64,000 nucleotides of DNA from Gemmatimonadaceae bacterium (GTDB lineage: Bacteria; Gemmatimonadota; Gemmatimonadetes; Gemmatimonadales; Gemmatimonadaceae), in assembly GCA_036504815.1 (NCBI GenBank), contig DASXUN010000011.1, forward strand, positions 1 to 64,000. The letters are read 5' to 3'. The notes under the pieces were generated by a model, which saw only the letters and a list, made by a program, of their open reading frames with translations, was not told the DNA's origin and did not search any database. Shown here one piece after another: positions 12,735 to 15,491 of the stretch (its first letter is position 1; each line of letters starts with the position of its first letter). A program made the position numbers and the translations under genes.

Positions 12735-14066
12735 ATGAACTACTGGATCAGCAAACTCATCCACCGTGTGCTGCGCCTCAAGCGACGCTGGGTGATGCTG
12801 CTGGCCGTCATCGGACCCGGCGTCATCACGATGGTGGCGGACAACGATGCCGGCGGCATCTCGACGTACGCCTCCACCGGCGCGAAGACCGGCTTCAACA
12901 TGCTGTGGGCGTTCATCCTGCTCGTCCCCATGGCGTATTTCATCCAGGAGATGACGGTCCGGCTGGGCGCGGTCACCAAGCGCGGGCACGCCGAGGCCAT
13001 CTTCGACGGCTTCGGCCCGGGTTGGGGCTGGTTCGCGATCTTCAACCTCGCGCTCGTGAACTGGCTGACGCTCGTCACCGAGTACATCGGCATGACGCAG
13101 GCGGCGCGCATCTTCGGCGTGCCGGAGTGGCTGACGTTCACGCTGGTCACCGCCCTGTTGATGGCCATCGTCTTCAGCGGGCGCTACTGGACCTTCGAAC
13201 GCATCACGCTGTTCTTCTGCCTGTTCAATCTCGTGTACATCCCGGCCGCCATCTGGGCGATGCGCACCCACAACGTCGCCGACGGCTGGCTCTCCGTTGG
13301 ACGCGGGTTCCTGACGCCCAGCTTCGACTTTGGCCCCGCCCTCGGCACGAGCGCGCTGTTCACGCTCATCATGGCGAACATCGGCACGACCATCACCCCC
13401 TGGCAGATCTTCTTCCAGCAGTCGGCGGTGGTGGACAAGGGGATGGACATCAAGGACATCAAGTACGGCAAGATCGACACGCTGGCCGGCGCGCTGCTCA
13501 CCTGCGGCGTGGCGGCCTTCATCGTCATCGCCACCGCGGCGGCATTCCATCACCATCCGGGCGGGCAGATTATCGTCGAGTCGGCGGCGGAGACCGCCAA
13601 CCGGATGCCGGACGTGATGGCCGGACGGCTGGGGCTCTGGGCCAAGGGCCTCTTCGCCATCGGCCTCTTCGACGCGGGACTGCTGGGCGCCCTCTGCATC
13701 TCGCTCGCGACGAGCTGGTCGCTGGGCGAAGTGTTCGGCTGGGCGCACTCGCTGAATGAGAGCGTGCGCGAGGCGCCGTGGTTCTACGTCGCGTATCTCG
13801 TGATGCTCACCAGCGCCGGCGCCGTCTCGCTGGTGGCGAGCACGCACGTGCAGGACGTGATCACGATCTTCGTGCAGGTCGTGGCCGTCGTCCTGCTTCC
13901 GTCGGCCCTCGTCTTCCTCATCCTGCTGCTCAACGACAAGCCGCTCATGGGCGAGCACGTGAACACGCCCACCCAGAACATCGCCAACTGGTCGATCACC
14001 GGCCTCGTCATCGTCGTCTCGACGGCGTATGCGCTTTCGGTGATCTTCCCCGACCTTTTCACGTAG
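12735..14066 (+). CDS. Nramp-related (SLC11-type) divalent metal permease
   Basis: This is a polytopic inner-membrane protein of 443 residues with about eleven predicted helices. The ATG at 12735 is preferred over 12678 because it places the first helix right after a short basic leader. Helix 1 reads GPGVITMVADNDAGG and aligns with the Nramp GPG...DPGN block, so DPGN is replaced by DAGG. Helix 6 reads NIGTTITPWQ where classical Nramp has MPH. The Met and Asn that select transition metals are therefore missing, while one Asp is kept. The coupled downstream MgtE_N/CBS protein suggests magnesium or another hard divalent cation. Substrate assignment is inference. Confidence 0.85.
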   Translation: MNYWISKLIHRVLRLKRRWVMLLAVIGPGVITMVADNDAGGISTYASTGAKTGFNMLWAFILLVPMAYFIQEMTVRLGAVTKRGHAEAIFDGFGPGWGWFAIFNLALVNWLTLVTEYIGMTQAARIFGVPEWLTFTLVTALLMAIVFSGRYWTFERITLFFCLFNLVYIPAAIWAMRTHNVADGWLSVGRGFLTPSFDFGPALGTSALFTLIMANIGTTITPWQIFFQQSAVVDKGMDIKDIKYGKIDTLAGALLTCGVAAFIVIATAAAFHHHPGGQIIVESAAETANRMPDVMAGRLGLWAKGLFAIGLFDAGLLGALCISLATSWSLGEVFGWAHSLNESVREAPWFYVAYLVMLTSAGAVSLVASTHVQDVITIFVQVVAVVLLPSALVFLILLLNDKPLMGEHVNTPTQNIANWSITGLVIVVSTAYALSVIFPDLFT

Positions 14067-14078
14067 GCGGGCCCGACC

Positions 14079-15341
14079 TTGACCGCCACCAACGGTTCGC
14101 TCCACCCGACCACGCACGGCGCCGAGTATGAGCTGCACTTCTTCTCGGCGCTGCTCGACCGCCCCGTCGCGGTCTCACGCCCCGACCTGAAGATCGGCAC
14201 GCTCGACGATCTCGTGTTCAAGGTGGCGGAGCCGTTCCCCGAGGCCGTGGGGATCGTGGTGGCACACAAGCGCGGCCTCCCCAATGAGTTCATCCCGTGG
14301 GAGCGGGTCACGCGCATCGACCCGCACGCGATCGTGGTGATGCCACCCGACCACGCCGAACGGTATCCCTCGTTCGTGGACCAGCCTGGCTGGCTCCTGC
14401 TCAACGAGCACCTCATCGGCCGCACCATCCTCGACATGGATGGCCGCAAGGTGGAGCTCGTGAACGACGTTCACCTCCTGGCCAGCCACGGCCGCATGAT
14501 CGTCGCGCACGTGGACGTCTCGCTGAACGGCTTCCTGCGCAAATGGGGGCTGGGGCTGCTCGCCTTCGGCAAGGATCGCCTGATCTCGTGGAGCTACGTG
14601 CAGCCGCTGTCCATCGAGGACGCGACGTCGTCGGACAAGGTGTCGCTGTCGCTGGCGCGCGAACAGCTGCAGGAGCTGCCCAGCGAGGACCTGGCCGACG
14701 CGCTGGAGGAGCTGTCGGGACGCGAGCAGGAGGCGATGTTCTCGGTGCTCGAACCCGAGAAGGCCGCCGACACGCTGCTCGAGACGGAGCCCCGCGCCCA
14801 GCGTCAGATCGTCGCCGACCTGCCGCCGGACCGCGCCAAGGAGATCCTCTCGGAAATGTCCGTCGGCGAGATCGCCGACCTGCTGTCGGCGCTGCCGCAC
14901 GATGACCGTACGGAACTGCTCGCGCACCTGAGTCCCGAGGAGTCGCAGCGCGTGCGGCACATCCTGGGGACGCACGAGGCGACGGCCGGATCGCTCCTGT
15001 CCCAGCAGTTCGTGGCGCTCCCCAAGCAGGTCACCGCGGGCGAGGCCATCCGGACGCTGCGCGAGCGCGCGCCGGACCCGGACTCCATCTCGTACCTCTA
15101 TGTCGTCACGGAGACGAACCAGGTGCTGCTGGGCGTCGTGGACCTGCGGGAGCTGGTGCTGGCGCGCGAATCGGCGACGCTGGAGGAACTGATGGTCTCA
15201 CCGGTCGTCTCCGTGGACTCGGAGCTTGGCGAGCAGGATGTCGCCGAGCTGTTCGAGAAGTACAACTGGCGCATGTTCCCGGTGGTGGACGCGAGCGACC
15301 ACCTGCTGGGCGTGATCGGCTACAAGGATGTGCGCCGATGA
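14079..15341 (+). CDS. Soluble MgtE-N/CBS-domain protein, probable metal sensor of the permease
   Basis: The TTG at 14079, 12 bases after the permease stop, gives 420 residues with no membrane helix. The N-terminal 180 residues contain two PRC-barrel-like segments (IGTLDDLVFKV and IGRTILDMDGRKVELV). A superhelical MgtE_N domain follows, with repeated 'LP.ED.ADALEELS', 'LPPDRAKEILSEM' and 'LPHDDRTELLAHL' units. A CBS pair ends it (ISYLYVV...VVDLREL and MVSPVVSVDSEL...GVIGYKDV). In MgtE channels this N-CBS unit senses Mg2+ and gates the pore. Here the pore domain is absent and an Nramp-like permease sits next door, so a regulatory role on that permease is the simplest inference. Confidence 0.85.
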   Translation: MTATNGSLHPTTHGAEYELHFFSALLDRPVAVSRPDLKIGTLDDLVFKVAEPFPEAVGIVVAHKRGLPNEFIPWERVTRIDPHAIVVMPPDHAERYPSFVDQPGWLLLNEHLIGRTILDMDGRKVELVNDVHLLASHGRMIVAHVDVSLNGFLRKWGLGLLAFGKDRLISWSYVQPLSIEDATSSDKVSLSLAREQLQELPSEDLADALEELSGREQEAMFSVLEPEKAADTLLETEPRAQRQIVADLPPDRAKEILSEMSVGEIADLLSALPHDDRTELLAHLSPEESQRVRHILGTHEATAGSLLSQQFVALPKQVTAGEAIRTLRERAPDPDSISYLYVVTETNQVLLGVVDLRELVLARESATLEELMVSPVVSVDSELGEQDVAELFEKYNWRMFPVVDASDHLLGVIGYKDVRR

Positions 15342-15377
15342 GCCCGCGGGCCGTGACCCGACGGCAGGGGCGGTCGC

Positions 15378-15491
15378 ATGCCGCGCGTTGAGCGGACGCG
15401 CACGGTGCGCATCGCGCTTGGCGTGCTGCGCATCTACTTGATCGTGATGCTCGTCCTGCTCGCCCTGCGCGCCGTGCAGCTGTTCAGCTGA
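15378..15491 (+). CDS. Predicted 37-residue single-pass membrane protein
   Basis: The ORF starts MPRVERTRTVR and continues into a hydrophobic stretch of about 20 residues, then ends LFS. An AGGGG purine tract lies about 8 bases before the ATG. The basic N-terminus followed by one helix fits an N-in small membrane protein. It lies 36 bases after the MgtE_N/CBS gene in the same direction, so it may be a small subunit or regulator of the metal module. With no homolog in hand, chance ORF remains possible in this G+C-rich DNA. Confidence 0.45.
   Translation: MPRVERTRTVRIALGVLRIYLIVMLVLLALRAVQLFS

Follow-up and report, generated by a model that had tools for sequence, protein, structure and literature searches.

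We analysed a stretch of 64,000 nucleotides (the window) of a Gemmatimonadaceae bacterium, positions 1 to 64,000 of contig DASXUN010000011.1 in GenBank assembly GCA_036504815.1, and describe here a locus on its forward strand that encodes, in this order, a permease of the Nramp family, a soluble partner protein related to the magnesium channel MgtE, and a membrane protein of only 37 amino acids (aa). The coordinates are collected in Table 1. A reading of this DNA made from its letters alone (the sequence-only reading) had recognised the permease and the partner and had proposed a two-component transporter in which a sensor borrowed from MgtE gates an Nramp-fold carrier. Its text makes no mention of the third gene, a 37-aa open reading frame (ORF) whose stop codon is at position 15491. 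We suggest, with a probability of about 0.6, that the three genes form an operon and encode a single import system for divalent metal, made up of a carrier core, a split-off helix of that carrier and a soluble regulator. Only 12 nucleotides separate the permease gene from that of the partner. No sigma-70-like promoter was found at the locus, and terminator-like matches numbered two against 0.9 expected.

Table 1. Features of the three-gene locus (positions in the window)
Feature	Position	Strand	Basis or remark
NRMT-type (SLC11-related) permease, 443 aa	12735..14066	+	Pfam Nramp, E 2.9e-69; EleNRMT is the closest solved structure
D38-A-G-G, helix 1 metal site of permease (DxxG)	12846..12857	+	read from sequence
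T218-T-I-T-P-W, helix 6 metal site of permease (TxxT), without Met	13386..13403	+	read from sequence
Soluble partner, 420 aa, TTG start	14079..15341	+	PRC-barrel, MgtE_N and CBS pair
PRC-barrel of partner, residues 112-174	14412..14600	+	Pfam PRC, E 8.5e-7
MgtE_N of partner, residues 201-297	14679..14969	+	Pfam
CBS pair of partner, about residues 303-420	14985..15338	+	Pfam
Small membrane protein, 37 aa, single transmembrane helix, MPRVERTRTVRIALGVLRIYLIVMLVLLALRAVQLFS	15378..15491	+	by sequence, a homologue of the helix fused to the C-terminus in related permeases

The association of these genes is widely conserved. Relatives of the permease were taken as the best 80 of 266 from a scan of genome contigs; they are 60-90% identical and span about a dozen phyla, including Gemmatimonadota, Planctomycetota, Verrucomicrobiota, Acidobacteriota, Bacteroidota, Myxococcota, deltaproteobacterial groups and others. 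The partner lies directly 3' of the permease in 76 of the 80 and the contig stops first in the remaining 4, so the pairing is no chance neighbourhood. A profile seeded with 13 copies of the small ORF finds it after the partner in 71 of the 80 (two copies, L057 and L064, are cut by a contig end); the other 9 loci lie on contigs that reach no further than the partner's end. There is no fourth conserved neighbour gene, the biggest neighbour family reaching 11 of 80 loci once ORFs recognised by strand and overlap as antisense or frame shadows are set aside. At one Sumerlaeota locus (L040; L040:2637 and L040:3718) the partner match ends at about residue 310, and a degenerate second copy of the small helix lies about 1 kb downstream. 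Among 121 Gemmatimonadota genomes, a full-length partner is present in 7 and a close permease in exactly those 7; all other partner matches listed cover at most about residues 175-420, the region common to MgtE. The linkage of the two genes supposed by the sequence-only reading is borne out in this sample, in which a CBS protein without the permease is not frequent. In a more remote permease group (type B, 34-40% identity) all 15 Terriglobia loci, some of them truncated by contig ends, have the partner upstream; of 27 Desulfobacterota loci, 25 have it next to the permease, either upstream or in a different orientation. In L156 partner and permease appear to be fused in a single frame, but what joins them is a run of N in the scaffold, and the fusion was rejected.

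Of 70 copies of the small gene, 65 begin with ATG and 57 show a Shine-Dalgarno-like stretch. The gene is under purifying selection, with nonsynonymous below synonymous divergence (pN<pS) in 1545 of 1556 pairs, which are not independent of each other. Its product matches no Pfam or NCBIfam family. The N-terminus is the more positive end in 45 of 70 sequences and equal to the other end in 18 of 70, a weak bias towards an N-inside orientation. The small-protein profile gave strong matches (E<1e-4) in 19 of 467 genomes, namely 8 of 121 Gemmatimonadota, 3 of 198 Desulfobacterota and 8 of 148 Terriglobia. All 19 genomes hold an NRMT-type permease and 18 hold the partner, and wherever one contig carries both, the small gene adjoins the permease locus. 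In genome G269 permease and small gene lie on different contigs, both of them broken at the end, and the contig with the small gene opens within the end of a permease, after which comes the partner. One Terriglobia genome (G282) has a close permease and no small-protein match; its contig ends inside the partner. Genomes in which a type B permease was the only one found gave no strong match. In a draw of 395 Gemmatimonadota the small gene is present in 14 genomes, 8 of them already among the 121; 13 of the 14 have the partner, the exception being G021. The lack of the small gene in G336 proved to be only apparent, the gene lying between permease and partner and being interrupted by N. Five marginal matches (E 0.003-0.01; G010, G062, G379, G429 and G472) were set aside as approximately the number expected by chance at E<=0.01 in 467 genomes; the three of these five that are from Desulfobacterota have neither permease nor partner nearby.

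What this small protein might do is suggested by the plasmid relatives of the permease, which occur in 48 plasmid records, 17 of which were examined. Ten plasmid permeases, from Alicyclobacillus, Mycolicibacterium, Streptantibioticus, Mesorhizobium, Cellulomonas, Rhodococcus, two Paraburkholderia, Arthrobacter and Methylobacterium, carry a C-terminal extension of about 90 aa, the last ~35 residues of which resemble the small protein. The fused form is thus present in Actinomycetota, Alicyclobacillus and some Proteobacteria. An eleventh tail, on plasmid p1 of Alicyclobacillus sp. SO9 (L242), belongs to a permease that looks broken, being split over two frames; an intact copy is in A. curvatus (L235). 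The small-protein profile detects the tail directly in 7 of the 11 (independent E-values 1.7e-4 to 0.04), and in a comparison of profile with profile the ten tails match the small protein at 95.4% (E 2e-8). As controls, the best of 36 segments of the permease of the window's clade scores 1.3% against the small-protein profile, and among 62 segments of the fused permeases the last 3 alone exceed 1%. By these sequence comparisons, the 37-aa protein and the helix at the C-terminus of the fused permeases are homologous. Gene fusion is classical evidence that separate proteins act together, and since other lineages carry this helix within the permease chain, we read the small protein as part of the carrier. 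A separate helix directly follows the permease in A. caldus (71 aa) and in two Acidiphilium (98 aa), and in Citrobacter pPSV a helix gene lies between permease and partner, where the record's incomplete gene table has no entry. Two of the 17 records, from Alicyclobacillus fastidiosus (a type B locus) and Acidithiobacillus sp. AMEEHan, are without such a helix. If the core, like that of Nramps, has 11 helices with the N-terminus inside, a helix 12 in the fused forms would put the linker inside, and the tail would run from inside to outside, a direction that fits the basic N-terminus of the free small protein. Alternatively, the 37-aa protein might be no structural helix but a regulator in its own right, comparable to MgtS or AcrZ, which would stabilise the permease or bring in the partner; its size and topology resemble those of known small regulators, and its gene varies in position, lying after the partner or between both genes. 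We consider this doubtful, however, since the same segment is a covalent permease tail in 10 relatives, and since in A. caldus, Acidiphilium and G021 the helix directly follows the permease without the partner beside it.

The permease itself was described by the sequence-only reading as an Nramp-like protein with DAGG and TPW in place of the classical DPGN and MPH motifs, akin to SLC11-related magnesium transporters that lack the selective Met. This description holds: both motifs are read directly, the Pfam Nramp match is clear, and DPGN and MPH are absent from the permease, the separate canonical MntH of the same genome retaining both. NDAGG (N37-DAGG in the window) is kept in 81 of 81 aligned permeases, the window and the 80 relatives, and the helix-6 motif reads TTITPW in 56, TTIAPW in 21, TTVTPW in 2, and TTITAW and TTITGW in 1 each. 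EleNRMT (7qia) is the best solved relative by sequence, with E 4e-57 against 3e-10 or worse for the Mn/Fe Nramps, and also ranks first, before all Mn/Fe Nramps, in a fold search with an AlphaFold2 (AF2) model of the permease (mean predicted local distance difference test score, pLDDT, 77.9), on which 11 transmembrane helices are counted. According to the available text of Ramanadane et al. (2022, PMC8806188), the NRMT signature is DxxG in helix 1 with TxxA/T in helix 6 replacing A/CxxM. With DxxG and TxxT present and closer kinship to NRMT than to Mn/Fe Nramps, the window permease is, as far as its sequence tells, of the NRMT type. In a tree of 49 rows, all 27 helix-bearing permeases, fused or split, fall on one side of a branch (Shimodaira-Hasegawa-like approximate likelihood ratio test, SH-aLRT, 99), and EleNRMT and the type B permeases fall on the opposite side (SH-aLRT 96). 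This and an earlier tree are quick trees that carry SH-aLRT support only and include long branches (MntH, L123); the earlier one omits L156, and the 49-row tree omits L242, with its permease in two frames, L248 and many type A and type B rows. Gemmatimonadota also have Nramp relatives (L124-L145) with DDDPAG...GTTLAPW or DDDPSG...GTTISPY sites, which lie outside both NRMT branches.

The partner passes the Pfam cut-offs for a PRC-barrel, MgtE_N and two CBS domains, and the MgtE channel domain is absent, as the sequence-only reading had stated for this gene, missing the PRC-barrel. The combination of PRC, MgtE_N and CBS was found in 27 of 27 aligned partners. The match to MgtE of T. thermophilus (TtMgtE; E 3e-31) ends at the equivalent of residue 248, ahead of the plug helix. 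A fold search confirmed the MgtE and CBS folds and nothing further, and the domain arrangement in the AF2 model is uncertain (predicted template modelling score, pTM, 0.41). Region 17-100 is beta-rich in the model, and no repeat of the PRC domain was detected within it (hhalign 1.4%). Neighbouring pairs of MgtE_N-CBS matches occur in other Gemmatimonadota (G013:C1:1111929-1113459, G037:C15:34158-35655, G015:C14, G103:C14, G090:C219); some consist of a short frame (about 290-310 aa) beside an MgtE-sized frame and are perhaps pore-less paralogues paired with ordinary MgtE.

Which signal the partner reads can be judged from its residues. We mapped the Mg-site and ATP-contact residues of TtMgtE, as given in the available portions of PMC5882242 and PMC5529423 (the ATP contacts from the latter), onto 71 partners of the window's clade (the window and 70 of the 76, those not spanning both ends being omitted) and onto other groups of 12, 24 and 23 sequences. 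The equivalent of E59 is acidic in 67/71 and that of D247 in 71/71, and D95 is D in 49/71. However, the equivalents of D91 (Mg4) and D226 (Mg5) are D in at most 1/71, and the plug helix with E258/D259 (Mg2, Mg3) is absent from the partner, whereas in TtMgtE mutating any one of Mg2-Mg7 stops closure, according to the same portions. Judged by these residues, of the four Mg sites in the soluble domain of MgtE two are broken in the window's clade, which, with the plug helix gone, weakens the case for MgtE-like Mg sensing. The ATP pocket fares differently. Y339, R357, V377 and W397 of the window partner align with the TtMgtE contacts Y170, R187, V207 and F227, and these are kept in 71/71, 71/71, 70/71 and (as an aromatic residue) 71/71 sequences of the clade; the same four positions are kept in 4, 8, 7 and 3 of 23 ordinary MgtE of the phylum, which have D91 in 23/23 and D247 in 22/23. 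The D188 equivalent is acidic in at least 57/71. Because D91, D226 and the plug helix are lost while the ATP-pocket positions stay, the partner in the window's clade more likely reads an adenine nucleotide, possibly Mg-ATP, than free Mg2+ in the manner of MgtE. An alternative model has two parts, a permease that imports Mg2+ and a partner that detects free Mg2+ in the cytosol at the MgtE sites and gates it, the small gene being incidental. This model agrees with the acidic residues that are kept and with the homology to MgtE, and feedback regulation by the MgtE fragment was indeed proposed by Shin et al. (2014, PMC4072509, cited here and below for its available text). The losses just described speak against it, and so does the small gene, present at every locus where it would be visible and fused to the permease elsewhere; we therefore regard it as improbable. 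Of the sequence-only reading, then, the MgtE_N-CBS homology and the strict linkage of partner and permease stand, whereas the Mg-sensing function is weakened by the lost sites and the count of two components overlooked a third gene.

Gene content, linkage, the homology of small protein and tail and the conservation of residues are read from the genomes directly; from here on we infer how the products assemble, what they carry, and which way and by what signal control runs. In the reading that we prefer, the 11-helix NRMT-type permease would take up a largely hydrated divalent ion via its DxxG-TxxT site. By analogy, since this site resembles that of EleNRMT, the ion is most likely Mg2+, at a little better than even odds. 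The 37-aa protein would be a further helix of the same carrier, placed next to the core in the membrane, its basic N-terminus on the inner side, and the PRC-MgtE_N-CBS protein would dock on the cytosolic side and throttle the carrier according to the state of the cell, with an adenine nucleotide (possibly Mg-ATP) likelier than free Mg2+ as its signal in the window's clade. More tentatively, we speculate that in one branch of Nramp-related carriers a carrier core and a movable helix have been fused and split in evolution, and that the split form is a heteromeric importer whose uptake is set by the energy state through the adenine-nucleotide-reading partner and not by free Mg2+.

Several observations weigh against this interpretation. 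No M-box or other riboswitch was found by Rfam searches at the locus; an M-box is reported for a subset of NrmT members, not all (PMC4072509). The small gene in G021 directly follows a permease of 39% identity with no partner within the 18 kb read, and since permease and helix occur there without it, the partner is not obligatory. The N203 equivalent among the ATP contacts is lost in the window's clade, and the six ATP columns rank high in conservation at a modest P of 0.036 (four groups tested, uncorrected), the corresponding value in the 23 ordinary MgtE being 0.88. No characterised protein that was placed falls inside the helix-bearing branch, and the proven Mg transporter EleNRMT lies outside it. 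The host genome also encodes CorA, an ordinary MgtE and a canonical MntH, so neither a need for Mg nor one for Mn is specific to this system. With the A. capsulatum pair, rescue was complete for a Mn defect but confined to low millimolar Mg for a Mg defect; the NrmT of this pair acted mainly as a Mn transporter, and co-expression of the MgtE fragment gave no better Mg rescue (PMC4072509). Moreover, several plasmid relatives lie beside heavy-metal genes (ArsR/SmtB, CadR, CDF, heavy-metal P-type ATPase, metal/formaldehyde-sensitive repressor), so that the helix-bearing system travels with metal-resistance cargo, and this could mean another ion; the loci amid metal genes are L232 (Citrobacter freundii pPSV), L233, L234, L239 and L246.

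The A. capsulatum rescue and the plasmid neighbourhood would suit an importer of Mn2+ or another transition metal, with a partner that answers to that metal or to the energy state and a low-Met site that merely relaxes selectivity. We hold such a substrate, and such an importer, to be unlikely, since the site lacks the selective Met and agrees with the Mg signature, and since a second Nramp of canonical type, scoring at least 347 bits, is present in the host genome and in 23 of 32 genomes checked. In G121, G124, G132, G135, G136, G141, G144, G145, G149, G151 and G152 the canonical-type match lies in frames of 590-834 aa, which far exceed the Nramp domain in length and possibly include a second, fused domain.

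SLC11 carriers have been studied as self-contained proteins. If our interpretation is true, the helix gene and the CBS regulator in one operon would mean a separately encoded subunit of the SLC11 fold. A small gene that belongs to no Pfam or NCBIfam family is also flagged in about a dozen phyla. Shin et al. (PMC4072509) named the permease group NrmT and noted that most members adjoin a gene for the cytoplasmic domain of MgtE. The pairing, motif and gating hypothesis of the sequence-only reading are accordingly not new, since the pairing and the feedback have been in print since 2014 and the motif since 2022. What is new here is the third gene, a putative split-off helix of the carrier. In the open-access literature we found no title or abstract opening describing the small gene or the permease tail, and in the available text of PMC9606685 and PMC10606218, which mention NRMT, a term search gave no MgtE, CBS domains or small protein. 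Earlier expression tests of permease and MgtE fragment did not consider the helix part, and the question raised in 2014 of the role of that fragment becomes testable with the third part present.

Compared with known systems, the window permease has the Pfam family and fold in common with canonical Nramp/MntH proteins but not DPGN and MPH. With the NRMT family (Ca_c0685, Ca_c3329, EleNRMT and A. capsulatum ACP2977) it has in common the SLC11-related fold, the DxxG-TxxA/T site and a neighbouring gene for the cytosolic part of MgtE, although EleNRMT sits on another branch. In A. capsulatum the partner lies upstream of the permease, whereas in the window it lies downstream, with no M-box and with an extra helix gene. 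The MgtE channel of T. thermophilus has MgtE_N and the CBS pair in common with the partner, which differs in having neither channel domain nor plug helix, in its gain of the PRC-barrel and in the loss of D91 and D226. KdpF is a single-helix small protein tied to a transporter. So are MgtS and AcrZ, which in the available text of PMC10710835 are of about 30-50 aa, like our small protein. The latter matches no sequence family, and here the helix occurs also fused to its transporter.

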